DNA of 64,000 nt from Nymphaea colorata. Its lineage: Eukaryota > Streptophyta > Magnoliopsida > Nymphaeales > Nymphaeaceae. The stretch spans positions 18,182,040 through 18,246,039 of the forward strand of contig NC_045145.1 of the NCBI RefSeq assembly GCF_008831285.2, read 5' to 3'. A program made the translations under genes and the position numbers. Each line of letters begins with the position of its first letter. Positions within the stretch are counted from its first letter, which is position 1. The notes under the pieces are model-generated. The model ran no database searches. It worked only from the letters and a program-made list of their open reading frames with translations, and was not told where the DNA came from. Positions 12,901 through 62,234 of the stretch are shown here, one piece after another.

Positions 12901-15900
12901 GAGATTGTCTTGGTATGCATCGTTAGCTTATAATGTAATTTTCATATGTGTGTTTGAAACTTTCGTAGTATAATTCTCTTTTATGATTTGATCTACTTGA
13001 TGATACAATTGTATGGTTTATTAAAACGTTGATCTGAGACCCTGTAGGCTGGGGCTTGTCTCCTGAACCGTATATGAGCTGCCTCGTATGGCTTCCCCCA
13101 CCCCCTTCTTCCTTCCACATCATTTTTTTCTGTTATTGTTATCACACAAGGAGAAAAGGTAGCTCCGAGCACAAAAAGACTTAGGAAAATCCCTTCACCC
13201 TCCTATTCAATGGGGCCCTGTAGTTATATAACATGAATAACAGGAGTTTCATTACTAATGCTTTTGACAATGTAACTGCTTCTTGATGTGTTTTCTTATA
13301 ATTCATTTTGTGTGTGTGCGTGTGTAGATACATGTATTTACTATTTATATAAACACAAAATGAATGTTTTGATTTCAGTGCACGTTTGGTTTCTCTTGGC
13401 TTGTGCATTCAATAATTTTGTTACTGTCATAACAGCTGTCTTATGCAGTTAATAATCTACCATGTTGTCTAATGCATGCATCATATTTGAGGAGTCAATC
13501 TCAACTCGGGAACACGCCTACAGCTGTCTTACATATCTCGCTATGTGTATCGCATCTTCACATTCAATCCTACTACACATCCATGTTGATCACATAGTGT
13601 TCACAATTCTTCAAAGTTCACAACTGACTCGTATCAGTTATATCCTACAGTTCACTGAGCAATTATGAGCAGGCATTTAGCTGGGAAGCCTCCATACCTT
13701 CACTTTCCCAGTCAAAAGATTCTTCTTTTTTTTTTTAACACTTCTGACTGCGACTACCTGTTACTGCCGCAGCTGTCACCACAGTTTTTGTTCAAGAAAA
13801 AGCTATTTACAGAGTAGTAAAGAACCCATAGTTCACTATAATGGAACAGATATTGTGCCCAATGAGCAAACTTTTGTGTCATGCACAGGAAACTGACATT
13901 TATCACTAAACATGCTCACATTGATAGGCATATTTTCATAGGGAATGCAAGTATTGCTTCATATTTTCATGTAGGTGTCCACACAGTAAGCATGACTCAC
14001 ACAAGGCATGCAAGACAGTCTAACATAGAGCATGTGGAATAAAATATGCTTCATTCTAGATACATTATGATTAGGTGTACTTGCTACTTGCTAAATAAGT
14101 CATCCGTCAAAAAGACAACGAAGTAGTAGCTATTTCCATAAGAGTCCATACTTGTGCCTCCATTTGCAAATTCCTGCACAATTTTCTCCAATATAAGGCG
14201 ACTTCTGGTTCCATAACCTGTATGCTTGAACCTTTTTGCCCTATCAAAATTTCAAACAGTATCATATACCAAAAGAACCCAGTAAGCAATTCACATGCAT
14301 GCATACACATTTCACATAGATATAAGCACTGTAAGCCAACTGAACAAGTCTCCCCTAAATACCATATATTTGTTCCTCCCCTGGCTAGTCTAGTAGACCT
14401 CGCTCCCCTCCCATGCCCCTAATCTTAAACAGAACACCCAATTATTAAACATATGTTGCACTCTTTAGTTAGGGTTCTGGAAAGACTGATGTCCTCCAGG
14501 CTAAGGCAGTATCACCAGCTTCAACCTGCAGGAAGGCATGAACCCTGCTTGTAATGTCACATAGGTGCTTCAAATAGGCTGCTGCACCTAAGCCAGATGT
14601 GCAATTCTTGTGGTGTGTGCCAGGTGCTTTGTGGGCATCGTTTTTAACGATTGGTTATGCTCCAATTCAAATATATACATTTGTTATATATTCATACACA
14701 TGAGCTCCTTTCACACACACACCCTTTTGAGAAAAATGGTGACTTGCACCATAGCTTGTGCAGTTGAATCTCATTATATTTCTTATATAATGGATCCCTA
14801 GGCCTATCCCTTCAACCAGTTGATAAGCAGCCCAGATCATTTTGAGTTAAACAGACTTTATGGTTCCCTTCAAAATGTGTAAGTCCTAAAAGATAAGTGA
14901 GCAATGTTCATTGTTGATAAGAAAAAACAAAATGAAATTACGATCACAAATAAAATAGTGAAATTAGATGGCAGGAATGACTGCAAAATTAGGACACAAC
15001 AATTTTTCTTGTGGAAATCATCAATCAGAGACTCTGCTTAGAGGGCTTGAAAATTGCCACGAGCCAGCTCTAGCATGATCAAATGAAACCAATTGATGGC
15101 AGGTGCTTAGAACAGCTGAAGCATTATCATAAAATCTTTGCTGAAGCAATAGAAGTAACCACTTTTATGAGTTGCCATGGCATGTTCAATGTCTCTATCT
15201 TGTTGTGCAAACGATGAAGATGCTTGCTAACAGAAGTGTCCCTATAGCACAACTAAACCCCAATTGGATTACCTTATACTAGACCAGAGTGGTCAGACTA
15301 ATCCAACCGAAAAATGATCAAGTCCTAGGCCTTGTCTGGTCTCCTTAGAATTAAATAAAAGCAAGCAAAAGTACTAAGCAGAAAAAGAACATTATATAAA
15401 TATAACCAATGTTCTATGTAACATAGCAACATAGCACATTGTATGATATGATACATTGCACAACTGTGAAGGAAAATAATGTAAAACACCCATGAATTTG
15501 ATGGGTGTAACTATACCATATTGAATGCAATTGGTACATCCCCATATCGTGCATTACACTGGAATGCAGTTGTAACCATTGTCACATATATCATGTATGG
15601 GTATTATACGGCAAGGAATTTTTCGGGTATAATACTCAAAGTTGTATATCTCGGGAATATCTCGGCAAATTTTAAAAAAAAATGAAAACATTTAATAAAT
15701 CCTAAAAAAATATAAAAAATAATTAAAAATTTTAAAAAACGCAAAAATGTGCAGAATATGCATTTTTTCATGTTTTTTATGTTCTGGCATTTTTTAAAAA
15801 AGACGTGTCTAGTTGCCGTTTTATACAGCTGATTTATTTCTTGTGTATTATACATGTTTTTTCGAATAATACACGTTTATTGTGACAATGGTTGTAACTT

Positions 15901-18900: not shown

Positions 18901-19522
18901 GTTCATCCCACAATTCGTCACTCACTTCAGCATCATCTGGAAGCTGCATCATGATCTGCCAACAAACAAAAGCCTCATAAAAACAGCCAGAGAAGATCAA
19001 GAAACCTCCATCCAACAAACCAAATCCCCCGAACAACGATAATTTTGCGAACAGAAATCGAGGCGATCACTTCGTGGAAAAGGGGAAAAGAGAAAATCTC
19101 TCTAAATTGTAAACCTCGGAAACGATCTGGCATGATCTGAACCGAACAGCCTTGTTGGAAGCAGCGGAGGAAGCGAGGAGAAAGCGCAAGAAGTCCTCCA
19201 GGAAGGCGTCGCCAGGGCGGGCGGCCTCGGAAACAGCAAAGAGGGCGACAAAGCGGACGAGGCGCTCGGTGGAGGGGGCCCTCTTGACTGTGGCGAAAAG
19301 GGGAGAGAGCATGGTGGTCCAGCAGTGGGTGAAGTCGAGATCAGGGTGGGAGGAGGATCGGAGACAGCCCATCTCCTTGAGCTTCCGGCCGTGGGCGGCG
19401 AAAGAGTGCTGGCACTCATTGAGGATCCGACCAATCCTTTCGAGGAGCTGAGTCCTCCCACTCCTACCCTCCTCCTTCTCCGCCTCCGCCTCCGCCTCCT
19501 CCCCTCTCGCGCTCTTCGCCAT
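9986..19522 (-). CDS. CAP-G: Condensin complex subunit 3 (CAP-G), HEAT-repeat protein
   Basis: Twelve exons join in phase to 1040 aa: 19522-19115, 18955-18752, 17132-16987, 16908-16640, 14240-14152, 12614-12467, 12326-11884, 11771-11269, 11194-11134, 11033-10749, 10629-10368 and 10290-9986. Length fits plant CAP-G (about 1050 aa). CAP-G is the HEAT subunit that, with CAP-H and CAP-D2, anchors condensin I on mitotic chromosomes. The N-terminal HEAT region shows VRFRSCQIVSE and DKIPLVRAFAVRALARF (exons 1-2). The Cnd3 C-terminal domain spans about residues 420-860, with YRFSTRQLLLLG, NRRVAAEFVQELLH and DVQRAAVRNLGLFGLL. The tail (about 935-1040) is acidic and Ser-rich. Start MAKSARGEE is preferred over an in-frame ATG at 19603. 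Introns 6 (donor at 12466-12465) and 9 (donor at 11133-11132) use GC-AG sites. Introns 2, 4 and 5 exceed 1.5 kb. Confidence 0.96.
15576..15891 (-). mobile_element. 316-bp non-autonomous inverted-repeat element in CAP-G intron 4
   Basis: The ends ccattgtcac (15576-15585) and gtgacaatgg (15882-15891) are exact inverted repeats, flanked by a direct ttgtaa at 15570-15575 and 15892-15897 that looks like a target-site duplication. Subterminal gtattatac/gtataatac motifs are also inverted. The interior is AT-rich and non-coding. A diverged copy in the opposite orientation lies at about 27417-27701. This looks like a MITE; superfamily not determined. Confidence 0.75.
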
Positions 19523-20930
19523 TATCCCCTTCCTCGTCTGCAAGAACTCTTTGTGCTCGTTATCTCTTCTCCCTCCACCTTCCCCTTTTGGGGGGAAGAA
19601 CATTTTCGCGCCTCTTCACCGTTTGAACTGTGGTGGTGACGCAAATTACCAGAACAGCCCCAACGCCCGAACCGCGTCACATGCGTACCAGCTCCCCGCT
19701 ACTCCCCCATCCATGTCATGTGGAGCTTGATGGATCATAGTAATCAGCTACTTTGGTTGGTGAAGACTCTTTTTTTTCATCAATACTCATGATGTGACAA
19801 CCGCCAAACTATTGGCAACATTTTTTAGTTCAATCATCCTCAAGTTATTGACTATGCATATCCTCTTTAGATAATAAAGAAAGAAGAACATTTCATCCAC
19901 CATTTAAGATGACAATAGAATTCCTTCCTTTTTGGTGCAAAAAAAAAAGAGCTTTCAATGGTACCTGAGTAATGCATCCTCAATTCGAATTCAAGGCTAA
20001 TCTTTTTAGACTACAAAAGGTAGCATGTATGCCAAAACATTGGAGATGAAAGGTATTCGGGTTGTAAGATCATCCAATCTCAAAACAAACATAGGGCCCC
20101 TAATAGAAAGGGAAGAAGATGAGGTTTTCCTCTCAAAGTTTAGTGCTATTTGATGAAAATGTTATTACATAACATCAGTTAGTACAATACATAAATGTGA
20201 CATGCATGAGAATCAAACTAACATTATGCTATACCTTTTATGTTTATCTTTTCAATCATTCCTAAAAGAGAACATTCAACTCGATGGAATGGTGCCCCAT
20301 TGACAACGTAGCCGACTAGCTCGGCCAAACCCCCACATGGACGAGATCACATGCACCACGTGGGTGGGGTACCTGAACACTGAACAGTTCTCAATTCAGG
20401 GGACGAATAAAGGGAACCCTTGTAAAAAGATTTACACTAGAGCCTTGGTTACAACATATTCAAGATCGTCGTTGATGCTCTGTCTAGATTCCCGGCGTCA
20501 TCGATTGGAGAAACCAGGGGACTCAGTTGGCGCCACCCATCACTATAGAAGCCTTTCCGAATTCCATCTCCTTCCAGTTTACTCACCCTTCCTTCCCAGA
20601 TCAAAGGTTAGGGGGCAAAACGTCGATGATGGTTAAATCTCTTCTCTCTCCGTCTCCTGGCCCTTTCGCTTAAAAAATTAAGGGGAAAATGTGAAAACAA
20701 GGAGAGAGTTCTATTCCAAGGGGCGAGGGTTCTATTCCATCCTCTTCCGCCACCACCACTGTTCCCCACATTACTTTTTAGTGAGAACAAACAAAAGCAA
20801 AACGAGAAAGAATGGGTTTCCAGAAGATGCCCACAAACCATCTTCCACCTAAACAGGTGCCAATTTGCGCTTCTTCATCGGCTCTTGCGCTTTCTTGTTC
20901 GTTTGGGCTTCGATTGGCCGGTGATCCGAT
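19523..20930. other. Divergent promoter region between CAP-G and the lipase
   Basis: CAP-G is read leftward and the lipase rightward from this 1.4-kb gap, so both promoters sit here. The CAP-G side carries the E2F-like site. A CACGTG G-box lies at 20357-20362. Positions 19700-20300 are AT-rich with no recognisable element. From about 20640 the sequence becomes pyrimidine-rich, as expected for a lipase 5' leader. No clear TATA box was found for either gene. Confidence 0.6.
19604..19611. promoter_or_regulatory. E2F consensus site in the CAP-G promoter
   Basis: tttcgcgc matches the E2F consensus TTTSSCGC and lies about 82 bases upstream of the CAP-G start codon, a typical distance for S-phase genes. 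Eight bases further upstream, 19619-19623 reads ccgtt, i.e. AACGG on the CAP-G strand. That is the core of the mitosis-specific activator (MSA) element, although its flanks match the full consensus only partly. Together they suit cell-cycle expression of a condensin gene. Confidence 0.55.
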
Positions 20931-28693: not shown

Positions 28694-28799
28694 AATAACT
28701 GATGGGACAAAGCGTACCTGATAGGGGTAGGGGGTCAGAGGGTGGTAATAACTGATGGGACAAAGCGTACCTGATAGGAGTAGGGGGTCAGAGGGCAGG
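28694..28799. repeat. 53-bp tandem duplication
   Basis: Two consecutive 53-bp units begin with aataactgatgggacaaagc at 28694 and at 28747 and are nearly identical (one visible difference is aggggtag versus aggagtag). The high identity suggests a recent slippage or duplication event. No coding content is seen. Confidence 0.85.
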
Positions 28800-32062: not shown

Positions 32063-32131
32063 ATCCAGCATGTTAATTGCAAAAGTCCTCATTCACATCC
32101 AGCATGTTAATTGCAAAAGTCCTCATTCACA
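32063..32131. repeat. Exact 34-bp tandem duplication
   Basis: The unit containing ccagcatgttaattgc and aaaagtcctcattcac occurs twice with a period of 34 bp and no difference visible. It lies in non-coding DNA just after an ATT/AAT-rich stretch at 31998-32060. Confidence 0.9.
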
Positions 32132-37400: not shown

Positions 37401-38068
37401 GATTTAACTGTAATTGTCGCAACTAAACAGGGCGTTGCCAACCGTGGTGCCTCCATTCGCGTTGGTCGTGACACTGAAAAAGCTGGAAAAGGTGACACTG
37501 ACCCTCCTTTCGTAGCCATGAACTATATATGCTTTTCTAAAACTTTAGATGTTCACTGGAAGAAGATCATTGTGGTTGATGTAGCCATGAACTATATATC
37601 CTGTTCTAAATCTTAGTTGTTCACTGAAAGAGGATCATTGTGGTTGATTGCTGGAACCTCTGAAAGACATTAGAACCTCACTTATGGGGGTGCTGGCTTT
37701 CAAAATACATGAGATTATACAACTCTTTCACTGACAAGTTTGTTTGTTCTAAACGAAAAGCCTGTTCTTCCAATATCCATTGAAAACCAGACTTTTATGT
37801 CGTCAATCAACTTTTTGAATTAAAGAAATTCCACTTACATAATGAGAATTTCCTCCTTCTGTATATCATGGATTTTTCAAAGGACTTTGCTTCTTGATTC
37901 TTGCTTGATGCTTCAGCCATCACCTATTAACCACTTCCAACTCTGGAAACTATTTTCATTTCTGCAATTGCAGGATACTTCGAGGACAGGAGGCCTGCTT
38001 CCAATATGGATCCCTACGTCGTCACTTCCATGATTGCTGAGACTACCATCCTGTGGAAACCAACATAA
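34497..38068 (+). CDS. GLN1: Cytosolic glutamine synthetase (GS1)
   Basis: Thirteen exons join in phase to 357 aa: 34497-34570, 34665-34704, 34817-34920, 35004-35052, 35142-35248, 35392-35479, 36312-36440, 36523-36597, 36711-36764, 37060-37097, 37188-37347, 37431-37491 and 37974-38068. The enzyme condenses ammonium with glutamate using ATP, the main route of ammonium assimilation and recycling, working with GOGAT. Diagnostic stretches are [29 protein letters not shown], the active-site region with [20 protein letters not shown], and the C-terminus [12 protein letters not shown]. The length equals that of plant GS1 (about 356 aa). There is no N-terminal transit peptide and no plastid-type C-terminal extension, so the cytosolic isoform is clear. 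Eukaryotic GS works as a decamer. All introns are GT-AG. A 69-bp tandem duplication sits in the last intron. A polyadenylation signal follows at 38295. Confidence 0.97.
37512..37650. repeat. 69-bp tandem duplication inside GS1 intron 12
   Basis: Two units begin tagccatgaactatata at 37513 and 37582 and continue through ttcactg(g/a)aagaagatcattgtgg-like sequence. They differ at several positions, so the duplication is older than those at 28694 and 32063. It does not touch either splice site. Confidence 0.85.
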
Positions 38069-39819: not shown

Positions 39820-40235
39820 TACAGAGCAAGATCTGAATCTGACTAGTAATAAACTTTGCCGGATTCATGTAAACAGATCCAGAGTTATAATTAGGTCGAC
39901 TACCGGATGCCTCCTACTCTACTCATTCCCCGTTTGAGAATGTCTCATCGTTTCATGCGCATAAGAATGTGGATCCCTCTGGGCACCAGCATGATCAAGA
40001 GCGATGCATCTAAAATCAATCGAATCCAAATGTAGCCATACGGGGATGATTCATATCCCGGTTCAGATGAAAACTTGTATTCTGAATCTTGTATTACATC
40101 GATTGATGGATCCAGAACCGGGCTAATATTTATGAGATGTAATGGGGTTAATTAACAGATTGACTTATTCAAGTGTGGTTCAAACAAGATAATGGATCCC
40201 ATAAGACTCCGATCTTGTACTACATTCACCCAGAA
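39820..40235 (+). repeat. Dispersed repeat, copy A
   Basis: This is one of three same-strand copies of an unclassified non-coding repeat of about 400 bp. Shared, in order: a ccggat/atc opening, a block near ggcaccagca(t/g)gat...agagcgatgcat, the phrase ttcagatga, the phrase gaatcttgta, cagatcc/gatccag, and an end near gagat(t/g)ta...gggtta. No terminal repeats were delimited. Confidence 0.6.
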
Positions 40236-40557
40236 GTTCACACTTTAGATGCCGTTTGGTAGTAAGAACAAACGTGAGTGTTTTATAAATTGAAGTAGAT
40301 TCAGAAGGCACTTGTTTAATAAGTGTTTCATGAATCATCTCCAATTTTGGAGCACATTCACAAAACACTAGAACCTTGTTGATAATGCGAAACGGCCCCC
40401 ACTTAATGAGCATATTCTTCTAGTCCAATGAAATCCAAAAACAAAGCCAAAGATATCATGTCCTAAAATATTTGAACAACCTAGGGATTTACTCTCTTGC
40501 TTTTTTTTTTCCTTCTAAACTTTGGCCCACCAGCTGACTCATGACCTAAAAAAGGTT

Positions 40558-41159: not shown

Positions 41160-41540
41160 AAATTTGAGGAGTAATAGACTTCACAGAATCTTACCATTTA
41201 AACAGATCTAGAATCAGGTAAAGTAATTTATACTTCCTACGTGTTTGCATCCCAATTTCTAAATGTCGATCGAGGTATAAGCATGTGAACTCCTTTTGGC
41301 ACTAGCAGGATGTAGAGCGAAGCATATGAAATCAATAGAGTTCTAATGTGGCAGTTCTAATAGAGTTCCGACTCAGATGAGATTAAGGAGAAATTGTATT
41401 CGAATCTTGTACATGGATTTAGATACAGATATTATTGGATACAGATCCAGGTTAGTACTTATTGAGATTTAGCGTGGTTAGTTTGACGCAACCAGATATT
41501 GAAGCGTCGATCAAACATGTCCAAATGTTGAAGCGATTCA
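41160..41540 (+). repeat. Dispersed repeat, copy B
   Basis: The same family as 39820-40235 and 45060-45440. Recognisable blocks are ggcactagcaggatgtagag, ccgactcagatgagatt, cgaatcttgtacatggattt, ggatacagatccagg and ttgagatttagcgtggtta. The copies are well diverged from each other. Confidence 0.6.
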
Positions 41541-41565
41541 ACGGGGAGGAGTGTTGGTTGGCATG

Positions 41566-41970
41566 TCAATATATCCGATCGAATCGATCCGAAAAAATCG
41601 GGTATGGAGAAAATTTTAACATCCGATTAAGAAATCGGATCGGATTCAGATTTAATATATGGCATCCGATCGGATTCAGATATACATAAATATCCGGTCT
41701 AATTCAGATACAGATTTGGATCAGATTCATTTTTAGACAAATATCTAGTATTTAATGCTAATTAAAATTTGAAAATTGGCAAGTTTCAAAATTCGGATTC
41801 GGGTATAAATATAAAAATCGAGTTTGAACTACATTCAGATTATAAAGTTAGATTTCAGATATGATTTTTTGTATTCGAATTTGAATCAGAAATATGTGAA
41901 TATCCGAAAAAAACAGATAGAACTAAGAATATATCGAATCAACAGATAGAATTAAGAATATATCGGATCC
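41566..41970. repeat. Degenerate short-period repeat of gattcagata / atccgat words
   Basis: Words of 8-12 bp such as atccgatcggattcag, gattcagatacag and aatatccgat recur in both orientations with irregular spacing over about 400 bp. This is not a clean microsatellite. It resembles self-similar AT-rich repeat arrays seen in plant intergenic DNA. Confidence 0.6.
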
Positions 41971-42202
41971 GTTGACATCCCTAATTGGTGGCAATGGAAA
42001 GTTTAGATAGGGGTTTCCTTTTGTAACTTAAAAAGCTAGAAAAAATCTTTTTTCGAAAAATGCAAGGCTGCTGTTTCTAAGAAAAGCAGATATTTTGATA
42101 AAAGCAGATTGCCGGATGGGGAGTTTAAGTAGACAGTCCGGCGTTGCGGTTCCCACTCAAGGTCTGGGCTTCGGATCTTCTTGCTGTGATCATTTTGAGA
42201 GG

Positions 42203-42571
42203 ATGGACTCGGGATCGGATGTCAAAGGCAAGAAAAAGTCCAAGTCAAAGTCCGCCGCGGAGGGGAGTTCGTCCAGCGCACCACCGGTGAAGAACACTCC
42301 CAACACTAAGGACGCCGGCGCCGACGAAGTCCCCAAGGACACCCCTAACAATGTCGCCCCCAAGGCCGTCCCGGCAGCCGCCGCACAGAACGCCGCCGCC
42401 ATCTATAATTACGTCCCCTTCCACAGCGAGGATCTCTACGACGCCATCTTGAACCTTGGTAGGACCACCACCGTGGACGACTGTTGGAGCATCTTCTCCG
42501 GCGTAAACAGCGAGACTGGTAGCCCGCTCGAGTACGAGGAGTTCGTCAGAATGTTGAGGAATCGACGCTAG
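42203..42571 (+). CDS. Degenerate calmodulin-like protein, paralogue of the gene at 46489
   Basis: A 122-codon frame with no intron. The N-terminus MDSGSDVKGKKKSKSKSAAE aligns with MGFGSCLNRCKKSKSP of the downstream gene, but its cysteines and Gly2 are gone. Where EF-hands 1-3 should lie there is instead a low-complexity Ser/Pro/Lys/Ala-rich stretch (about 20-66). The C-terminus (about 76-122) aligns with the last EF-hand region. Its loop reads NSETGSPLEYEE (102-113) against DKDGDGLINFEE, so the Ca-binding Asp residues at loop positions 1, 3 and 5 are lost and only the final Glu remains. Calcium binding is unlikely. The frame is intact, without stops, and GC-rich like a coding sequence. It may be a neofunctionalised protein or a pseudogene. 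An in-frame ATG at 42095 lies in the probable promoter/leader and is not preferred. Confidence 0.6.
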   Translation: MDSGSDVKGKKKSKSKSAAEGSSSSAPPVKNTPNTKDAGADEVPKDTPNNVAPKAVPAAAAQNAAAIYNYVPFHSEDLYDAILNLGRTTTVDDCWSIFSGVNSETGSPLEYEEFVRMLRNRR

Positions 42572-42860
42572 AGCGTAGTATCTCTCAATATTGTAGACCT
42601 AATCTCTGTCCGCCTCTCTCTGTCTTCCTCCATCAATCACTATTGTCACTACCTTTTGTTTTTCATTTCTTATCGGATCGTTCCCAGTGATTCCGTTTGT
42701 TCTAGTTAGATGATGGGGAGAGGACAGATAATATAAATGGCCTGCAGATTTCTTCCTTGATACTGTTGTTGATCAACCGAGGGGTCTGGATATGTCTGTT
42801 GTCCAATGCATGTGATGTCAACGAGTGGGACCTTTTCTTTTTCCTGTGTTTTATATTTCT

Positions 42861-42866
42861 AATAAA
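42861..42866 (+). promoter_or_regulatory. Polyadenylation signal after the degenerate CML copy
   Basis: A canonical aataaa (tctaataaagctt) lies 290 bases after the stop. In the sister copy the corresponding site reads tctaatgaagctt (about 47371), so the canonical signal is kept here and altered there. Confidence 0.45.
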
Positions 42867-43005
42867 GCTTTCGGCAGTTGGATGCATCTCTTGATTTAAG
42901 CTGTCGAGTAAAAGAGTTGAGGAACAGTTAATTTAAGCACATCTTGCTTTTCCCCTTACGTACCAAGAAAACAAAAATGCCTCCAAATTTATACACTACG
43001 GAACT

Positions 43006-43010
<5 letters not shown>

Positions 43011-43057
<47 letters not shown>
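43011..43057. repeat. (AT)n microsatellite
   Basis: A perfect 47-bp AT run inside the first duplication unit. No equivalent run is seen in the second unit, so it expanded after the duplication or was lost there. Confidence 0.92.
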
Positions 43058-43060
<3 letters not shown>

Positions 43061-44878
43061 AAAAGATAATACAATCAAGTTCTTCAACTGCAAATTGTCA
43101 CTAAATTGCTTACAGACCATCACACAACATAAAAGATCACTAATGTTAATATGAAAACTATTTTTTTTAATAGCAATTACTTTAATTTTAACGATCCGCC
43201 AACATCCAACATACTACATGAATCGAATGTCCATCTTATTCGGTATGAAAACCCTTAATCTGCTAGTGCACTTCAAGCAAACAAACTCAAAATCGGGGTA
43301 CACGAAAGCTCAGTCATTCAGAAAGCGAGTTTATCTGCTCTACAAGAACTTAAACTTTCATGAGAACCAAAGAAAGAAAGAAAGCAGGTCAATCGAAAAT
43401 CTAACAGCAGAGCAACGCTTTCTTTTTCATAATGAAAAGGAAGAAGATAGGTCAAAACCATTGATTAATTCATGTCACAGCAAAATCCACCTTGTCCCAA
43501 CTTTTGCGCACTTTTTGGAGTTTGGACGACCTTCGCGTCCGCCATGATCGTTTACAAGGATCCGGTTTATGAACCAGAAGTTCAGATTTATGGTTAACGG
43601 GGTGACGCGAATTTGTTAGACTCAGATTTGAGATCTACGTAAATTTCAAATCTACGGATTTAAGGTCACACTCCTAAAATAGTGGTAAAATCCAGTATTT
43701 GTTTGCATTGTGGATCCCACATAATAGATACTATGTGACTGGATACGGTTTTGGACCCAATTGGAACCAAATTTTTTTTCAAAACCCGAAGTCAGTATAA
43801 CCAACATACCATCCAATATTTGTATGTTGTTGGGTTTTTACAGAATCCTAGATGACCACTAATTTGGAACTCGGATCAGTTATAAAACTGCATACAAAAT
43901 CTGAATCTGATTACTATTTGGATCCCATATTTTTTTACCAAATTCGACCAGATTGATTAAAAAACGGGTCGATGATTGAGTTTATCCCGCCCATTGACAT
44001 CCTTACAAACTCGCACTAAATCTTTAAAAAAAAAAAAAAATTCTACAATGAAATGGGGAAGTTGGGTTCATTTGTGGCGAGTACTAGTATGAAATGATAT
44101 AAGTATATCGAAAGCAGGGAAGATAGTTTTAGAGAAGAGTTAACCAGGCTTCTTGATCAATTTCAATATCTAGGTCCGTATACAACAGCCTACCAAAATA
44201 GGGCTTCAAATGGGCAAGACCTGGTTTAAGTTGCTTCTCATTATCCAAATGTGATTCCACCTCCAATGTGCTTAGATGTCTTGGATATAATATATTTGGA
44301 TCCTAGTGTATATGGGTTGGATCTGATCTATATCTATACGGAGCTTAGTGTATATGGGAAAGTTTGGATCCAACATAAAACCACACATTAGACTCAAATC
44401 TCGTTGTTAATCGAATCTTGTTTACTTACTCGACCTGAAAGATCAGATCCAATTTTGAATCATCAGTTGGACAAAAAAAAAAAAAAAAAACCAAGAACCC
44501 TGATTGGGAAGTCCTTGCTTCTTAGTCCTGATACAAAATTTGGTTACCTTCAAAATTTTGAATGCAAAAAGGCGAAATCTGAAATAATCAAGTGTAGATT
44601 TTAGGTCTGGTCTAAGATCCATAGCTTGATGAACCATGGATTGTAAGATGGATTTTTTTTGCCACATCTGACCCTTGGGTTCAAACCTAAAGTAATGAAT
44701 CTTGAATACGGTATGGAATTTTCTGATAATGAAGTGCTACCGGCACACACTAGATATGATTTGTTGGGTCTTCAAATCCGATCCTGATTCATGTGGTAAA
44801 ACTACATACCAAACTAGAATCCGAATAATAATAGAGTTTACCGGATCTGACTACACAGATCAAATCCAAAGTCAGGTC

Positions 44879-45064
44879 CAGGGACGTAGCAAGAATTTTT
44901 TCATAAACGATGCCGAACCAAAGTTTTTAAAATTTTAACACGGGCCAAAATATTAATTTTCAAAGTTTTTACATAGAATAAGTAAAATTTTCTAAAATTT
45001 ACATGTAATTTTTTTTTGAGGTGGGGCCAAAGCCCATGTGGGCCCCTCCTTGGCTCCGCCCCTG
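44879..45064. mobile_element. hAT-like non-autonomous element, 186 bp
   Basis: The left end cagggacgtagcaag and the right end cttggctccgcccctg are imperfect inverted repeats. They are flanked by gtcaggtc (44871-44878) and gtcaggta (45065-45072), a 7-of-8 target duplication of the length typical of hAT transposons. The interior is AT-rich and non-coding, ending in gaggtggggccaaagccc. Confidence 0.75.
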
Positions 45065-45440
45065 GTCAGGTAGATTATCGGATACCCCCTACCCTTTATT
45101 TACGTCCTTAGTTGCGGCTGTTGGTCATGTCATATGCAATGGACTCCCCACTATGCACTAACTGGATCAAAGGAGATACTAAGTATCTGATCAGATGGAT
45201 CGAACTAAATGCAACCGTAAGGCTACTGTGTTAATTGACAACTACACATATAATAGATTCAGATGGAAAAACTTATTCTGCATCTTGTTTGAGGATTTAG
45301 AGACAAATGTTGTTACATACAGATCCGGTTACTACTGAGATTTAGCTTGGTGAGTTAACAAAATGAGCAACCGAAGTTCAGATAAGATCTTGGATTCCAC
45401 AACACTGTAATCCAAAACTGAAAACCTTCCACACGAAAAT
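45060..45440 (+). repeat. Dispersed repeat, copy C
   Basis: Third copy of the family at 39820 and 41160. It shares ggtagattatcggat, gattcagatgg, ctgcatcttgtt, acatacagatccggttac and tactgagatttagcttggt, and lies on the same strand as the other two. The hAT-like element at 44879-45064 abuts its left end. Confidence 0.6.
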
Positions 45441-46279
45441 TGAAAATTTTCGCACGTAAAATCACAGAATAGAGATGGAAGCAAAAAATCTTTGTGTCCT
45501 CCTGCTCATAGCTGTAAAGTAAAAAACTACCATGTATGAAATATGGAAAAAGTAATTACGAAGAAAAATAAATGATTTTATAGGTGCAGTCCGGTTTTTT
45601 TAATTTTGTGACAATAGGGCATCCCAATTGCAAATAGATACTTTTAAAAACGGCGATATATTCGGGGATCTTTTCGTTAAAAAAACTCAAACAAAAAGGG
45701 GGAAAGAAAAAAGGCGTGGTAGTGGAAGTGGAGATACCACTATTTTTTTCATGTGGGTAACTTCCGCATAAATGCCTCGCACGTTAAAAGAAAGAATCGT
45801 TTGTTTATAAATGGAAATACGCGTGAAGACATTTCAGGAACATAATAAAAGCGAGACCCACACACTTTCGGAAGCATCTTCCCCTTCCTCGAAATCCTAG
45901 GTGAAATTAAAGTTAAAAAATATCAAATTTTAAGTTCCTTTTTTAAAACTTTTTTCCCTTTTAAACTTCTTGGGAGGCTTAACACCTTTGTGGGTTTGAC
46001 TTTTTGGTCAAAGCCCACTGAAGCAGCAACAATAAGGTAAAATGCGAACAAAACCCAGACGTGTCAATTACTGGTAAGAAAGATTTACGCGTAGGTGTAG
46101 AGATCTCGGATCGTCGCAAAGTCGTTTGGCAAAAGGAACACTAACTCCATAATGAATGTAATGTATGTGAATGAATGATTGTAGAAGATTGAATGAAATA
46201 GTAGCAGCACCGTTATTAAAGAGATGCAATTGAGCCGGAGTCTTGGTGATGGAAAGTTTTGGTACCGGTTTTATTTTCA

Positions 46280-49110
46280 AGTTTTAAAACTTGAAAAAAA
46301 ATCTGTTTTTAAATGCAAATGTGCTGTTGCTAATAAAGGTAGATTTTGAGACGAAAGCAAATTCCGGGAACGGGAGCTTAAATAGACCGTTACGACGAGT
46401 TACGGTTCCCACTAAAGAGATTTGGGTTTCGGATTTTCCGCTTCGGATTATCTTTCTTTCGTTTGGGAGGGAAGAGGTGGGAGAGAGGATGGGGTTCGGG
46501 TCGTGTCTCAACCGCTGCAAAAAATCGAAGTCGCCGCAGCAGCAGCCGCCCACGGCGGAGAGTTCGTCGTCCGAGCTACCGGAGAGCTACGCCAAGGAGA
46601 TGGAGAGGGTCTTCCGGCGGTTCGACGCCAACGGCGACGGAAAGATAACGTGGGCGGAGCTGGGGTGGATCATGTCGAGCCTGGGGCAACAGGCGACGGC
46701 GAAGGAGCTGCAGGAGATGGTCCGGCAGGTGGACTCCGACGGCGACGGCAGCATCTCACTCGACGAGTTCATCGAGCTCAACACCAAGGGTGTCGACTCA
46801 AGCGTCGCCCTTGATGACATGCGCGGCGCCTTCTCCCTCTTCGACGTCGACGGAAACGGCTTCATCTCCTGCAAGGAGCTCCACAAGTTCCTCAGCAAGA
46901 TCGGTGATTCCGCGACCATGGACGAATGCCGGAAGATGATCGGCGGCGTGGACAAAGACGGGGACGGCCTGATCAATTTCGAGGAGTTCAAGGCCATGAT
47001 GATGGGACGTTCTTCCCGGTCTAGTGGGTGATATCGTGGACCTAGCTAATCTCTTTCTTCAGTCCTGCTTGGTGGATTGAACCCGCATTTCTCGTCAAAT
47101 GTAAATTGTTCGTCTCTAGTGCTTTTGTTTCTTCTGTTCAGATAATGGGGAGACGGCAGATCCAAACAAAAAATGGTCTGAAGATTTCATGGCTTCTTGT
47201 TTCAACTGGAACTTATTGATTGATATTGTTGTTGTTCAACTGATAGGGTCAACGAGTAGGACCCTCCCTTCTTCTTCTTCTTCTTCTGTTTTTTGGGGTT
47301 TTATCTGCTGGACATTATAGTGTTTCCGCAGCAAGCCTGCAGAAAGATAGTGTTTAATTTTCTAATGAAGCTTCTTATGGTTCGTGCTTTTTGGGAATGT
47401 ATGCCGCCGATGACATTTCTGCATATTTAAGTTGTCCGGTAGAAGCCTTAAAGTGTTTGATAGACAATTGCATCGCATTAGTTTCTTTCGCTTCTTCCAT
47501 AGTGTAGGGAGCAACTATGGTGCCAATCTATTGCTTCAGAGTTGAAATATAGATCTAACTCTTTGAAAAAGAAAGAAAAAGAGAGAATGGGGTTGACCAT
47601 CACATTTTTTTTTCTTTGAACAACTTGAAGAAAAAATCTCTGAAAAGTTGGCAACTCTAAATTTTAAAAGCGATACCTTGGCAGGACATAAAAATTAAAA
47701 TTTCACCTGAATGCAAGGGTTCCAAATCCAAAACTAGTCCAAAAGACGAACAAAGGAAAATATGAATGGAAAACGAAACGGATTGTAGATAAATATAGCC
47801 TTTGTAAGTTCTGTGTTGGGGCACCCAAAATCATGATAAATGAATTCAGATTCAGGAAAGGTTTAGTTTAAATTTTTTAAGTGAATACCTTATATCGAAT
47901 GTCCATATATTTCCAAAGTTATATTTTATCTGGTATTGGATTTCTCACAAATATATGAAAAGAAACAGATGACTGCAAATTGATTCTATAAGACGAAAAA
48001 AATGCAAAAGATATTGCTCAACAAAATATGTCCAAGAAGTAAATTATATAGCAAGAAAGACCCCCAACATTTTAGCTTTTGTGCTGACACGAATTCATCA
48101 AAACCAGGCGCTTAGGTATCATGCTCCCTATTTGTTAAGCACGCGAAAAGGGGTGTTGGGCATTTCAGAACAACTTCCTTCCTGCCTTCGCCTTTTAAAG
48201 ACGCCAAGGAAACTTCTATCACCTTCACTCCATCTGATTTCATTCACTTGAACTCTTTTACAGTCACAAACTTTGGCAGGGACAAGTTAGTGTTGTTGAT
48301 TATGGAATCAAGCAGGACCCACTCTCCTATTGGTGATCAGAGAGATGCCAATTGGATCTCTGAAACAGGCTGCTCTAGATTTGATCTAACTAATAATTGG
48401 TGAGTTTCAGATTCTGACCCAGTCAGCTGCTCGGACTACCATCTCGTAGATGAATCGGATCCAAGTGAACCGATCGAACTTGATATACTGTATCTCTCTG
48501 CAACGCACATACATACAGAGACTACAGAATTGAGTCAAATATACATAACGATGGCAATTATTCTTAGTGAAACTCGCTTTAGTTTCAAACATACAGCTTT
48601 CTAAAATGAGCTCGTCAGAGTTTAATGTGACTTAACCGGATTTGTTTGTGCATGGAGATTAATCTGCAGTAATCCGATTCGGTTCTTGCTACCAAATCAA
48701 ACCAATCGACTTCAGGTTCAAATGGGCAGCGGTGATGGATTTAGTATCTGATCCTGACTGGCGATCCACGCGGCCTCTTTATTGCTGGTTAATCTCCAAG
48801 CAGAACAAACTTAAATCGACGGTGGTGTTTCGAGAACACGAAAAATAAGTTATTTGGCATGCCACTTTATCTGCTCTCCAAGAACTTTAACTTTGAAAGA
48901 AAGAAAGAAAGAGAGGAAGAAAGCATGTCATGCCTGCAGCCATGTCTTAAATTAAAAAGCCAACTGCAGAGCAATACTTTACTTTTAACAACGAAAAAAA
49001 AGAAGATAGATCAAAAACCTTTGATTAAGTCATCTCTCAAACAAATTCAACCTTTTCCCAACTTTACGCACTTTCTGGATGACCTTCTCGCCCGAGGGAA
49101 AGACACTTGA
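46280..49110 (+). repeat. Tandem segmental duplication, unit 2 (contains intact CML gene)
   Basis: This unit aligns with 42060-43550 in the leader, the gene ends, the 3' flank and a distal block at about 48862-49100 (ttatctgctctccaagaact, caactttacgcactttctgg). It is longer because about 47400-48860 has little counterpart in unit 1, implying an insertion here or a deletion there. That extra DNA shows no gene. Confidence 0.8.
46489..47031 (+). CDS. Calmodulin-like Ca2+ sensor with four EF-hands (CML23-26 type)
   Basis: Intronless, 180 aa. Four canonical EF-hand loops are visible: DANGDGKITWAE (46-57), DSDGDGSISLDE (82-93), DVDGNGFISCKE (119-130) and DKDGDGLINFEE (155-166), each with Asp at 1 and Glu at 12, so four Ca ions can probably be bound. 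It is a calcium sensor that would act by binding target proteins. FIELNTKG, ECRKMIGGVDKDGDG and the intronless structure point to the CML25/CML23-24 group. The N-terminus MGFGSCLNRCKKSK has Gly2 and two Cys next to a Lys cluster, which could support lipid anchoring (inference). The frame is open upstream to 46291, but that part looks like promoter and leader, and MGFGSC aligns with the start of the sister copy. Coding GC content is high. Confidence 0.93.
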   Translation: MGFGSCLNRCKKSKSPQQQPPTAESSSSELPESYAKEMERVFRRFDANGDGKITWAELGWIMSSLGQQATAKELQEMVRQVDSDGDGSISLDEFIELNTKGVDSSVALDDMRGAFSLFDVDGNGFISCKELHKFLSKIGDSATMDECRKMIGGVDKDGDGLINFEEFKAMMMGRSSRSSG

Positions 49111-50649
49111 AATTTGAAGACTCAAAAAGAGGCATCATCCACCATGGTCATTATTATTTTGCGACTACCCACTTTGTCAACAATCGGTTCAGCTTTATGT
49201 ATAGCAGGGAGAGAAGAAATAGCCCAACAAATGCTAAAGCCTGACAGCAGGCAGAGATACTATAAACTATAAATGGGGTTGGACTTTCGAATCCTGTCCA
49301 ATGCATAGTAAATCAGATCAGGACCCGGTCAAGTACCATTTTGGGCACAGCCATGAAATTCAAGACCCGGCTAATTAGATTTGCTTTCACCGCTGGATTC
49401 AAACCAGATTAATTTCTTTAACAACCAGACGCTGGATCAAACATGCATAGGATCCACACTTAGATGTAACCAGTTTGAGGCATCGTGATCTTCGACTCAA
49501 ATACGCTAAGAACTTAGGTAATGCACCGACGCAAGGAATGACTAATGTTTTATTTCGTATTCCAATCATGAAAATAAAAGAGGGAATTGGGAGTTATGGG
49601 GTCCCAACTATTCTTAAATTTCCTACTCCACGATTTCTGCCTCATTTATATTCACCATTAAGGATGAGCTGACATAGTTTTTGTATTTTTCTTACGCATC
49701 TCTACGTATGTGGGCCTCACTTCTTATAAAATTATTTTTGTCATTTTCCTTTTTGCCTCATATGACAACTTTGATTGACCATCTAAATATATGAAAATTC
49801 CTTCTAGGTGCTCTTGCTAATGTGGCACTTGTTAGATGACCCCAAGTTGTCATAGTGCGGGCCCCTTGCTGACATGGCATCCACCTTAGTTTGGTGAGGA
49901 GCAGTTTTGTTGACTAATTTGACCACGGGTGGCTGGACTGGTGCAGTTATAGGCAAAGCTGCTTTGAATGCCTCCTTTTTTTTTTTAGCTTCGAAGGACT
50001 ATTGGGGGAATCAGGTAAAAAATCATATAAAAATTGGTATACTAAGTTATATAAAATTATATGGAATAAGTGTATATATGTAATACATCATATTGACTTG
50101 CTAGGCAATTAAGCAAAGCAAACAATTTCTAAAAGCTAAGTATGTTGGTGTTGCACTGGACTGGACTCCCTAGCAACATGAAGCAGCTAGCTTGTGTTCA
50201 ATAACATGTTGAACGGAGTTGAGATTACCGGATCGATTGTTCAAGATGCTAGCTACTTGCTACAACTGTCTATAACTATTGAGAGTAATACATCCCATGA
50301 AACACTTTTAATTAAGTGAAACCACCAGACTCCAGATGATGCATTGAACTCAAAAAAACAAGTGGGATGGGAAAACAAGTTACAGAAGTGCAACACGAAC
50401 GCAAACGAACAAGAAAACAAAAGAAAAGAAAAAAAGTAGAAAGATCCGGCACAGTCCCCGATGACAGGACCAATACGAGGTTCTTATTGAACATTTAGTT
50501 TCTCATCACCAAGAACTAGTGCCGATCGATTTTATTCAATGGTTTGCACTGCCCCTTCCCAGGAGCCACACACTAAAAGGAGAAGCAATAGGCGGCCAAG
50601 GCATCCGATCCTGATGGAGAGAGCCTGTCGCCGATCGAGCTCATGACCT
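47032..50649. other. Intergenic: CML 3' flank, duplication remnant, laccase 3' side
   Basis: Contents are the 3' flank of the calmodulin-like gene, with a (CTT)n run near 47270-47287, unmatched DNA from 47400 to 48860, the distal duplication block (to 49110), and repeat-like DNA sharing phrases such as gatcaggacccggtc with the local repeat families. The laccase 3' untranslated region is on the right. No gene is recognised. Confidence 0.5.
50531..50536 (-). promoter_or_regulatory. Polyadenylation signal of the laccase gene
   Basis: tttatt on the plus strand is AATAAA on the laccase strand, about 115 bases beyond the laccase stop codon at 50652-50650, a typical distance. Confidence 0.55.
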
Positions 50650-53600
50650 TCAACAGGGAGGCATGTATGGTGGTGGTGGCAACATGCTCGTCTCGTTCGT
50701 TGGTCCGTTCTTTGTGATGAAGACTGCAATCATTCCCCAGGAGAAATGGCGCTCCAAGTGACAATGCATCAGCCAGACACCTGCATTCCATACAAGACGA
50801 ACAGGGTTTTCTCTTCACAACCATTACCTAGCATCCCAACTAAAACCGCTAGGAATTAACGAAGATTTGCAACGGAGAAAAAAAGGAAGTAAAGCTATGT
50901 ATCTTGTGATGCAGAGAAAACTCTAACCTGGGTTGACAGCTCTAAACCTCACGGCCACCCATCCGGCCGCGGGAACCCCCACGGTGTTCTCGTATGGCGG
51001 GTCGACCAAGTTGAACTTCTTGGGGTCATTCACCGGGTCAAAGTTGCCGAAATCCCGGGCCATGACGAAGAAGCTGTGGCCGTGCAGGTGCAGCGGGTGA
51101 TTGATTTCGCCGTTGAGTCTTGTCCCCTGCATCACCAGCTCCACCGTATCGTTGTAATCCAGCTCCACCACCTTCGTCCCCGTCGTCGTAAACTCTTCAG
51201 CATTCGTGAAGTTCGTGTACGTGAAGTTGAAGACCTTAGTGAAGGGGGGGAAGTCGGGGGTGTAGACGCCGGAGATGTTCTTATAGTACGCTTGGAGTAT
51301 GTCTGTCGACGGCAACTGAAAGGAGATGTTGTTGATGCTGGCGGCAAGCTTCGGGTTGTTGGTGCAGGTCTCGCAGGACAGGTAGTTGATGCCGAAGGCG
51401 AAGGCCAACCTTTTGGTGACGTTCATGGGGACGCTTATGGAGTGGTTCGCATCCACCATGCTCCTCTGCCTCTTCACGAAGTCCATCACCGCCTGCGAGT
51501 CGCTGAAGGCCGGCAAGGTCGGGAAAGGAGTTGTTGAAGTGGTGTTGGTTCCTTCGTAGCCCTTATATTCCACTATCGCCGTCGTCGTTGTGTTGTCGAA
51601 GACCAGACGGGTGTCAGCATTGTAGGGCTTAGCAGCAATGTAGTAGAGCCCCGGCGTCTGGTCGGCAGTGATCAGGACATCCATCCCTTGGCCCGGAGTT
51701 ATGCAGATGTACTCAACGGATTCGTTGCTAACGTAGGCGCCGTCGCGGCCGACGAGTGTGATGTTGTGGTTCGCGACGGCGAAGAAGTGGCCGTAGGCCA
51801 GCGCAGCATTGATCACGCGAAGCATGTAGCTCTTGCCTGGCTCCACAAGGAATCTAGTCGTATCTGCAGTTCATTTTTTTTTCCCCATAGCTTGAAGTCA
51901 CGAACAGATTTTTCATAACTAAAGAGAAGTGGTGTGCAGTTGCAGGGAGAAATGAAAATTTTGCTGAATGTAACACCTATGAAGAGATCAGTATATGAGG
52001 ATCATCGCCGCCTATTGGGCGATTCTAGCTGTCTTTGATTACTTCAAATTCTAAACTCACGACTCTTGCTTTTACTAATGTGGCAAAAAGTCCATACTAA
52101 AATTCGTGATTGATCAAACTATATAAAGATCTAGCATCCATACTTAAGATTTCAATGTACTTCTTTAATTAGCAAACCACAACATTTAAGGGTTTTTTTT
52201 TCTTTTTTGCTTTGTTCATTATATCCATATTTAAGAGGTGCATTTGGATAATACTCCAAAACCATTTTTTTGAGGTAAAAAATGGTTTTCGTTCCAAAAT
52301 ACAATTTCATGGGAATTTGGATGACACCAAAAAAGAGTTTTGCCAAATCTCATTTTTGACAAAAACTGCATTCGGAAAGGGATTGCCTGGTACCCTCATG
52401 ATAATCACAAGAAAACGTGGTTTGTTCATACTACCTAAGCGCACAAACCAAACTGATCAAAAACCCAAATTCTTAAAAAATAGTTTTCACAATCCAATTT
52501 TTTAAAGTCAGTTAGCCAACGCTTTATAAAGACTTTTCTTGTTTTGTTTTGTTTTTTTTTTTCATTAGCAGAAGGTCCAAGGTCCAAAATAGGTACTGAA
52601 GAGCAAAGCTGGATATATGCATTAAATTTTGCGGGCTAGTATGGTTAATGACAAAAGTACTCTTAGTTTTTGGTAAGACAAAAGTGAAAATAAAGAAAAT
52701 GAAATGACTACAAAGACGTGTTATATATGGAGATGGGTGTGTAATGATCAAAATACCTCTGGTCAAGTTTAAAAAATAGATTTTTAAAAGGATAAAAAGG
52801 ATTATAAAAAAGTTAAAAATTCTAAAAATACATCAATCACCTTCTTTTTTCCTTGGTGTATGTTTGTCGCGTGCAAAACCTAATGCACCCAACTCAATAT
52901 TGACTCTTATATATATAGAGCTCGACAACCCCATCCCTGAACTCCAGATCCATGGTTTCCATAATATAATGTAAATGTCAAACATGCAATTGTGAAATGT
53001 ACTGTTTGCTTTAAGAGTTTATTTCACCTAATGCCCATTTTAAATAGGTACCAAGGCTGCAAACATAGTTGATATTCATGGATTCTAGATCCGAAAGATC
53101 TTAAAACAAAGTTGGTCCAAGGTAATCAAACACATATAAAAGTAAAAAAATATCATGGCATGAAAGAGTGCTACCTCTAATTGTTTAAAGTTTAAACTTG
53201 TACTAAAAGATGTTGGACTTTTTCAAGCACTAGTTAAGCGATTGATTATTCTGCTTCTCAGACTTTCTAAAAGTATAACTGAAATGGTTAAGAGATGTGC
53301 ATGAGCCCAATGTACGCCTGGGCAAGGTCAAAGAGTTTTGAGATAATGCTTGAATTGAAATTTAAATGTTTGGCATTCTCCAAAGAATGTTGGCCTCCAA
53401 ACACCTCACATGAAACGAACCGAACCTGGTTATATGTCTCATACTAGTCAACAAATTTTTTGTGTGCCAACGATGAAAAGTATATCCACTTCACACCGAA
53501 AAAGAAATTTTTTTGTGAGGGCAAAAATAAAAATAAAAAAATGAAAAGCCTAGAAAGGACATTCCTTTTGAAAATTGGAAAAAAAAGTCTGTTACATGAT

Positions 53601-61520: not shown

Positions 61521-61570
61521 TTTAATAATAGCAGCACAACTAACATTCCAATCTGAGTGAACATTGATCA

Positions 61571-61656
61571 CCTTGAATATTAGACGGTTGAGGCTGTTTG
61601 GTTGCAATATGAGTGACCTTGAACATTAGATGGTTGAGGCTGTTTGGTTGCAATAT
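61571..61656. repeat. 46-bp tandem duplication
   Basis: The unit beginning ccttgaa(t/c)attaga(c/t)gg and continuing ttgaggctgtttggttgcaa occurs at 61571 and again at 61617 with two differences. Confidence 0.85.
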
Positions 61657-62234
61657 GGTCTCCACAAGGGCAATGGTAAGTGGGGTCTCCGTAAGCACAC
61701 TTTAAAACTTTAATTTAGTGTGGAAACTTGAGTGAACTTGAATTCGGTTATGTTTATGTGCGGTAACATAACATAACTTGTTTCATACTCAATTGAAAAT
61801 TTGTTAATTTCTTAATGATATATGCCGTACATCATTAAAAAAAAAAAAAACAAAAACTTCTACCTCTACGCTCGCACCTACACCTAATTCCAACCTTAGA
61901 AAATTTGATTGCATGCCATCTTTGGCAATCTTCCATTTTAAATCCATTCTCTTCTGCCTGTCAAATCATCCACATTTTCTTCAATTTGCCGCAGGCTGCG
62001 CGTCGTCGCCATCGTTGCCAATAAGTAACCTTGTCGCTTTTCAATCAGAAAGGCCAACACCTCCATCGATTCAAACGATTAAAAGAAAAAGAAAGAAAAA
62101 AGAGAAGCCATGGTTTCGTCTCCATCACTCTGCATGTGCGACTCTCGTGATAACAGTGCAGAGAGATGCATGAAGCCATTAAACAAACTTTCGAGGACGA
62201 AATGGAGCAGATTCTTCAGATCGGTCCCAGCTGC

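Follow-up and report, generated by a model that had tools for sequence, protein, structure and literature searches.

In calmodulin-type proteins, Ca2+ opens two lobes, which then bind a target. The calmodulin-like proteins (CMLs) of plants differ among themselves in the number of their EF-hands and in the loss of Ca2+ ligands; the passages of PMC5983762 that treat this give a span of 80-330 amino acids (aa) for Arabidopsis CMLs and describe CML14 as having one functional site of three. Here we describe a pair of CML-type genes of Nymphaea colorata that lies within a stretch of 64,000 nucleotides (contig NC_045145.1, positions 18,182,040 to 18,246,039; hereafter the window). The upstream unit carries an eroded gene (copy 1) and the downstream unit an intact one (copy 2). 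The best explanation, which we regard as rather probable, is the tandem duplication of a CML followed by asymmetric divergence, with copy 1 a still-coding and probably Ca2+-independent derivative.

Among described systems, the plant CMLs with an M-G-F terminus, as characterized in the relevant sections of PMC6471108, come closest to copy 2, which is a single open frame without introns, has EF-hands as its only domain with canonical Ca2+ ligands, as in the CML family, and carries the Gly2 motif. Its loops 2-4 read D-x-D and loop 1 D-x-N, thus making it more calmodulin-like than the CML rule stated there. Copy 1 differs from these proteins, having neither a Pfam EF-hand nor Gly2, and is closer to CMLs with fewer or non-functional EF-hands, such as CML14, in its loss of EF-hands and ligands (sections of PMC5983762). 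Compared with the latter, however, its whole N-lobe is unrecognisable, a linker stands in its place, and an intact sister starts 4.3 kb downstream. Duplication of calcium sensors is itself familiar: the pertinent parts of the sources report 13 possible tandem duplicate sites for soybean EF-hand genes (PMC5443154) and functional divergence of CBL10, a duplicated plant calcium sensor (PMC7210777). In mammals, the corresponding part of PMC4159008 describes both duplicates as accelerating at first and one as diverging for longer than the other, the longer acceleration being tied to a new genomic position, whereas the two copies of the present pair lie side by side. Although striking, the pair illustrates known patterns and is not a new kind of thing.

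A tandem duplication preserved in collinear blocks

The two units originated by tandem duplication. Five blocks reach E<=1e-3, all collinear and in the same orientation, with bit scores of 112, 98.6, 90.6, 58.8 and 34.4 and a best E of 1.6e-27 in the comparison run alongside the shuffle control. For this control, 45201-49500 was shuffled 200 times with dinucleotides preserved, and plus-strand matches at E<=1e-3 were counted; a single shuffle gave any such match, the strongest at 33.7 bits. Taken alone, the block at the start of the coding sequence (CDS), with its 34.4 bits, is no better than that chance match. The secure duplicated extent is 41985-43519 / 46243-49079, and the units proposed in an earlier sequence-only reading (42060-43550 and 46280-49110) agree with it within about 75 bases. 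The leader, N- and C-terminal codons, 3' flank and distal block that this reading had described as common are all there, and the two units agree in their order and orientation. Its derivation of the units by duplication is likewise borne out, and the self-comparison it had called for has a diagonal between the units that includes non-coding DNA.

Under standard scoring, the leader match (41985-42180/46243-46438) has an E of 2.1e-22, the 3' flank is recovered only as the piece 42678-42752/47110-47188 (E 4e-6), and the distal block gives the best match (43300-43519/48836-49079, E 1.2e-31). In this non-coding distal block the two units resemble each other most closely (52/265 aligned sites differ), more than in the leader, the coding ends or the 3' flank; the block has no Rfam match and no convincing RNA fold. 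Between the 3' flank and the distal block, the copies show no similarity (531 of 1000 shuffles are as good). Weaker off-diagonal matches in a permissive scan of 40.0-51.0 kb, at E 0.003 to 0.25, are taken as background.

Divergence is 0.31 in the leader, 0.41 in the 3' flank and 0.23 in the distal block. The C-terminal 46 codons have a pN of 0.449 and a pS of 0.305, corresponding to a dN of 0.68 and a dS of 0.39 over 27 synonymous sites. The flanks had been thought to be unusually conserved, an idea that finds no support, as 0.31/0.41 matches the C-terminal dS; they are at ordinary divergence, and the unusual part is the protein. The substitution rate of plants is about 6.5e-9 per site per year in grasses. 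With this rate, flank divergence would place the duplication at roughly 24-32 million years, or more in slower lineages, a figure that is only indicative.

An intact calmodulin-like gene and its eroded sister

Copy 2 is recognised by Pfam as EF-hand_1 (5.5e-32, four stretches) and EF-hand_7 (1.2e-33), and it matches calmodulin chains at about 1e-34. Its EF-hand loops, at residues 46, 82, 119 and 155, are all canonical; this is the copy to which the four perfect loops noticed in the sequence-only reading belong. The protein begins MGFGSCLNRCKKSKS, that is, with an MGFGSC terminus, and has Cys6, Cys10 and a basic stretch after MGF. A role of cysteines in membrane attachment is familiar from other acylated Ca2+ sensors. 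Judging from these residues, copy 2 is possibly attached to a membrane via N-myristoylation. The motif sections of PMC6471108 list M-G-F as a CML myristoylation motif, with Gly2 in about 7.6% of CMLs, and do not name any sites of palmitoylation in these proteins.

Copy 1 is a net 58 codons shorter. Its protein begins MDSGSDVKGKKKSKSKS, with a strongly basic GKKKSKSKS terminus, and besides Gly2 it lacks both N-terminal cysteines of its sister. The similarity of the two N-termini is modest (14 of 5000 protein and 1 of 1000 DNA shuffles are as good). At the other end, none of 5000 protein shuffles matches residues 75-122 and none of 1000 DNA shuffles matches the C-terminus. Residues 76-121 align without gaps to residues 129-174 of copy 2, a segment that begins with the outgoing helix of EF-hand 3 and continues across EF-hand 4. 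Where loop 4 of copy 2 reads DKDGDGLINFEE, copy 1 has NSETGSPLEYEE: the Ca2+ ligands at positions 1, 3 and 5, all D in copy 2, have become N, E and G, and the Glu at position 12 is retained. EF-hands 1 and 2 are not recognisable. The earlier view that copy 1 keeps its ends but not its middle is right for the coding centre, 42287-42424, which has no detectable similarity, and the C-terminal codons it spoke of are indeed present; these codons, however, are a degenerate EF-hand 4, and the replacement thus does not cover the whole middle.

Copy 1 has no Pfam match at E<=10, so that not even the one EF-hand expected at least of a family member is recognised, and a profile built from the EF-hands of copy 2 itself fails to single it out (67 of 2000 shuffles are as good). 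Searched against the PDB, copy 1 draws ten weak rows, all of which miss significance at E 0.03. Calmodulin is the name of seven, the best with an E of 0.037; the rest comprise a dynein light chain, a designed calcium sensor and an RNA-binding protein. The descent of copy 1 from a CML is nevertheless supported by its alignment to copy 2, the shuffle tests and these PDB matches. With calmodulin as reference, sites favour copy 1 over copy 2 as the changed copy by 11 to 4 (P=0.12; 19 of the 34 sites give no decision), and we infer that copy 1 is the one that changed. A low-confidence AlphaFold model places helices at 58-70, 75-88, 91-99 and 111-119, a spacing that resembles an EF-hand pair whose first loop has collapsed; on this model, some of EF-hand 3 may survive as well.

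Origin of the linker and status of copy 1

The linker of copy 1 has no detectable counterpart in copy 2 (of 500 codon shuffles each, 292 are as good in the forward direction and 144 when the reverse complement is used). In 300 trials per level, a homologous segment diverged by substitutions alone was detected in 100% of cases at 29% divergence, the level that resembles the flanks, in 100% at 36%, in 96% at 42% and in 46% at 50%. A counterpart at flank divergence would thus be detected, which means that the centre was either lost and replaced or has changed much faster than its surroundings. The linker does not look like intergenic DNA and has coding-type composition. Its GC by codon position is 0.63/0.46/0.80 (position 3 against 1+2, P=0.003), and a GC of 0.80 in the best phase is reached by 41 of 1389 overlapping window pieces, three of them copy 1 itself. 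These 41 pieces start within five stretches of coding or coding-like sequence, namely the condensin-like, lipase and laccase exons, copy 1 and copy 2. The phase excess over the mean, equalled by 75 of the 1389 pieces, is less telling.

It is possible, though we would not expect it, that the centre was replaced, either through the capture of a coding fragment rich in GC or through recombination with a different gene. The absence of similarity on either strand, despite high detection power at 42% divergence, favours such an event, as does a composition resembling coding exons and unlike that of the flanks (33-40% GC). On the other hand, there is no donor within the window, and a MAFFT alignment can accommodate the entire middle by a deletion together with point changes, yet 1592 of 2000 shuffles do as well as the middle so aligned. 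This proposal concerns the linker only and may hold beside any other explanation; the degrees of confidence given here are therefore not exclusive.

Somewhat less probable, but still a serious competitor, is that copy 1 is a young pseudogene, useful for a time, whose constraint was lost and whose frame is open by chance. Three observations speak for it, of which the last two also weigh against a still-coding copy 1: its domains and Ca2+ ligands are gone, its C-terminal part shows no visible amino-acid constraint, and a foldback element directly upstream of the common leader breaks the upstream region, so that more distal promoter sequence is not common to both copies. As to constraint, the bootstrap interval of pN/pS in the C-terminal codons is 0.88-2.96 and spans 1. 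Without gaps, these codons differ at 58/138 sites against 131/456 in the leader and 3' flank (P=0.005), and their first and second positions at 37/92 (P=0.035); with gaps allowed, the difference drops to 43/129 (P=0.33), and our claim is thus limited to the absence of visible constraint and does not extend to positive selection.

Against decay stand the frame, open over all 122 codons from the ATG and not disrupted as in a pseudogene, and a third-position GC content (GC3) that is likewise intact, linker included. In neutral simulations of 5000 runs per setting, in which a copy 2-like gene evolved with indels scaled to the rate seen between the copies (30 events/721 aligned sites), the frame was rarely kept at t=0.2 (39 runs with full indels, 44 with half and 214 with none), less rarely so in a short neutral phase of t=0.1 (151, 202 and 896, respectively). 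Since the model starts from a gene that exceeds copy 1 in length and does not include the deletion, the true chance of an intact frame is higher.

That the two CDSs are much older paralogues whose flanks were homogenised later by gene conversion, a history that would likewise produce similar flanks around dissimilar centres, is very unlikely. In its favour, the C-terminal part of copy 1 is nearly as distant from copy 2 as from calmodulin (11/46 identical), and an N-terminal dS of 0.94 would point the same way had it not come from 9 sites, too few for use. Against it, conversion restricted to the flanks should leave the C-terminal dS above the flanks, whereas the two match, in what is a weak test given its few synonymous sites.

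Surroundings and possible roles of the pair

The features of the locus are collected in Table 1. The region of the foldback element matches its own reverse complement at 62%, and the element abuts the point where the alignability of the two leaders ends. Further upstream, a degenerate block occurs thrice within 6 kb around the duplicated genes. Two of its copies pair at 41328-41515 / 45202-45387 (under standard scoring 41387-41483/45265-45356, E 4.3e-12); because a third lies at 39907-40246, the block says little about how far the duplication reaches, and it may be a dispersed repeat or the relic of a further partial duplication.

Table 1. Features of the duplicated locus and its neighbours (window coordinates)
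Feature	Position	Strand	Remarks
CDS copy 1, eroded calmodulin-like protein, 122 aa	42203..42571	+	Open frame, GC3 0.78
Leader / proximal promoter copy 1	41985..42196	+	TATA-like TTTAAGTAG by eye; 72% over 41985-42180 to 46243-46438
Pro/Ala-rich linker, codons 29-74 of copy 1 (46 codons)	42287..42424	+	No detectable homologue in copy 2 or window
Degenerate EF-hand 4 region copy 1, codons 76-121	42428..42565	+	12/46 aa identical to copy 2 residues 129-174
3' flank copy 1	42572..42871	+	79/250 aligned sites differ from 47032-47320
Distal block, copy 1 side	43252..43519		Pair 69-72% identical with 48775-49079
CDS copy 2, calmodulin-like protein, 180 aa	46489..47031	+	Four canonical EF-hands, MGF N-terminus
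Leader / proximal promoter copy 2	46243..46454	+	TATA-like CTTAAATAG by eye
3' flank copy 2	47032..47302	+	Counterpart of 42572..42871
Distal block, copy 2 side	48775..49079		Partner of 43252-43519
Leader pair	41985-42196 / 46243-46454	+ / +	71-72% identity
CDS-start pair	42197-42290 / 46483-46585	+ / +	65% identity
CDS end and 3' flank pair	42322-42871 / 46761-47302	+ / +	57%, permissive scoring only
Foldback element (like a miniature inverted-repeat transposable element)	41560..41981		Terminal 20-nt inverted repeats, 80% complementary; upstream edge of copy 1 leader
Upstream repeat block, three copies	about 41080/41230-41519, 39779/39907-40246, 44744/45188-45449		Self-comparison
Laccase-like exon	50926-51870	-	Multicopper oxidase domains; best PDB match laccase 6.5e-84; downstream of pair, opposite strand
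Condensin complex subunit 3-like exon	19070-19615	-	PDB 5oqr, E 0.00025

The window has the look of plant nuclear DNA: its coding exons are GC-rich and set in AT-richer surroundings, and besides the laccase-like and condensin-like exons it encodes a class 3 lipase and a substrate-binding domain of the Rubisco LSMT type. Minus-strand frames at about 10.6-12.4 kb appear by eye to belong to the same condensin-like gene; the two that were scanned gave no Pfam family. Elsewhere, an inverted repeat pair at 15576-15861 / 27701-27421 (290 columns, 77% identical) perhaps represents two copies of a mobile element, and short tandem duplications with two copies each, 34-68 nt long and 89-100% alike, at 28694-28795, 32063-32131, 37512-37648 and 61570-61657, suggest recent local duplication events.

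Taking copy 1 as a still-coding derivative, we propose the following roles for the two proteins. Copy 2 would retain the ancestral job of binding Ca2+ through four EF-hands and most likely acts like other CMLs, with Ca2+ opening its lobes for target binding, while its MGF terminus, if myristoylated, could tether it to a membrane. Copy 1 would be expressed and translated, and would work, if at all, as a soluble, Ca2+-independent small protein: the absence of Gly2 and the two cysteines should make it soluble, and the absence of the N-lobe and of three ligands in loop 4 should leave it blind to Ca2+, so that it probably does not bind the ion. It is conceivable that the remnant of its C-lobe still touches the former CML target without Ca2+. 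A stronger proposal is that copy 1 kept its proximal promoter and frame, dropped the N-lobe and ligands, gained a linker and so became a new and functional protein. It would act, constitutively and independently of Ca2+, as competitor or partner of its Ca2+-regulated, membrane-anchored sister at the target of the latter; this we consider distinctly improbable.

If copy 1 is a pseudogene, its history is one of ordinary decay. If it is expressed and functional, the locus is a compact natural experiment, in which a calcium sensor stands beside a derivative without Ca2+ ligands and without the lipid-attachment motif. Such losses would then fall within 0.3-0.4 substitutions per site of flank divergence, under proximal promoters that are similar, and what becomes of an EF-hand protein once its ligands are lost could be tested directly.

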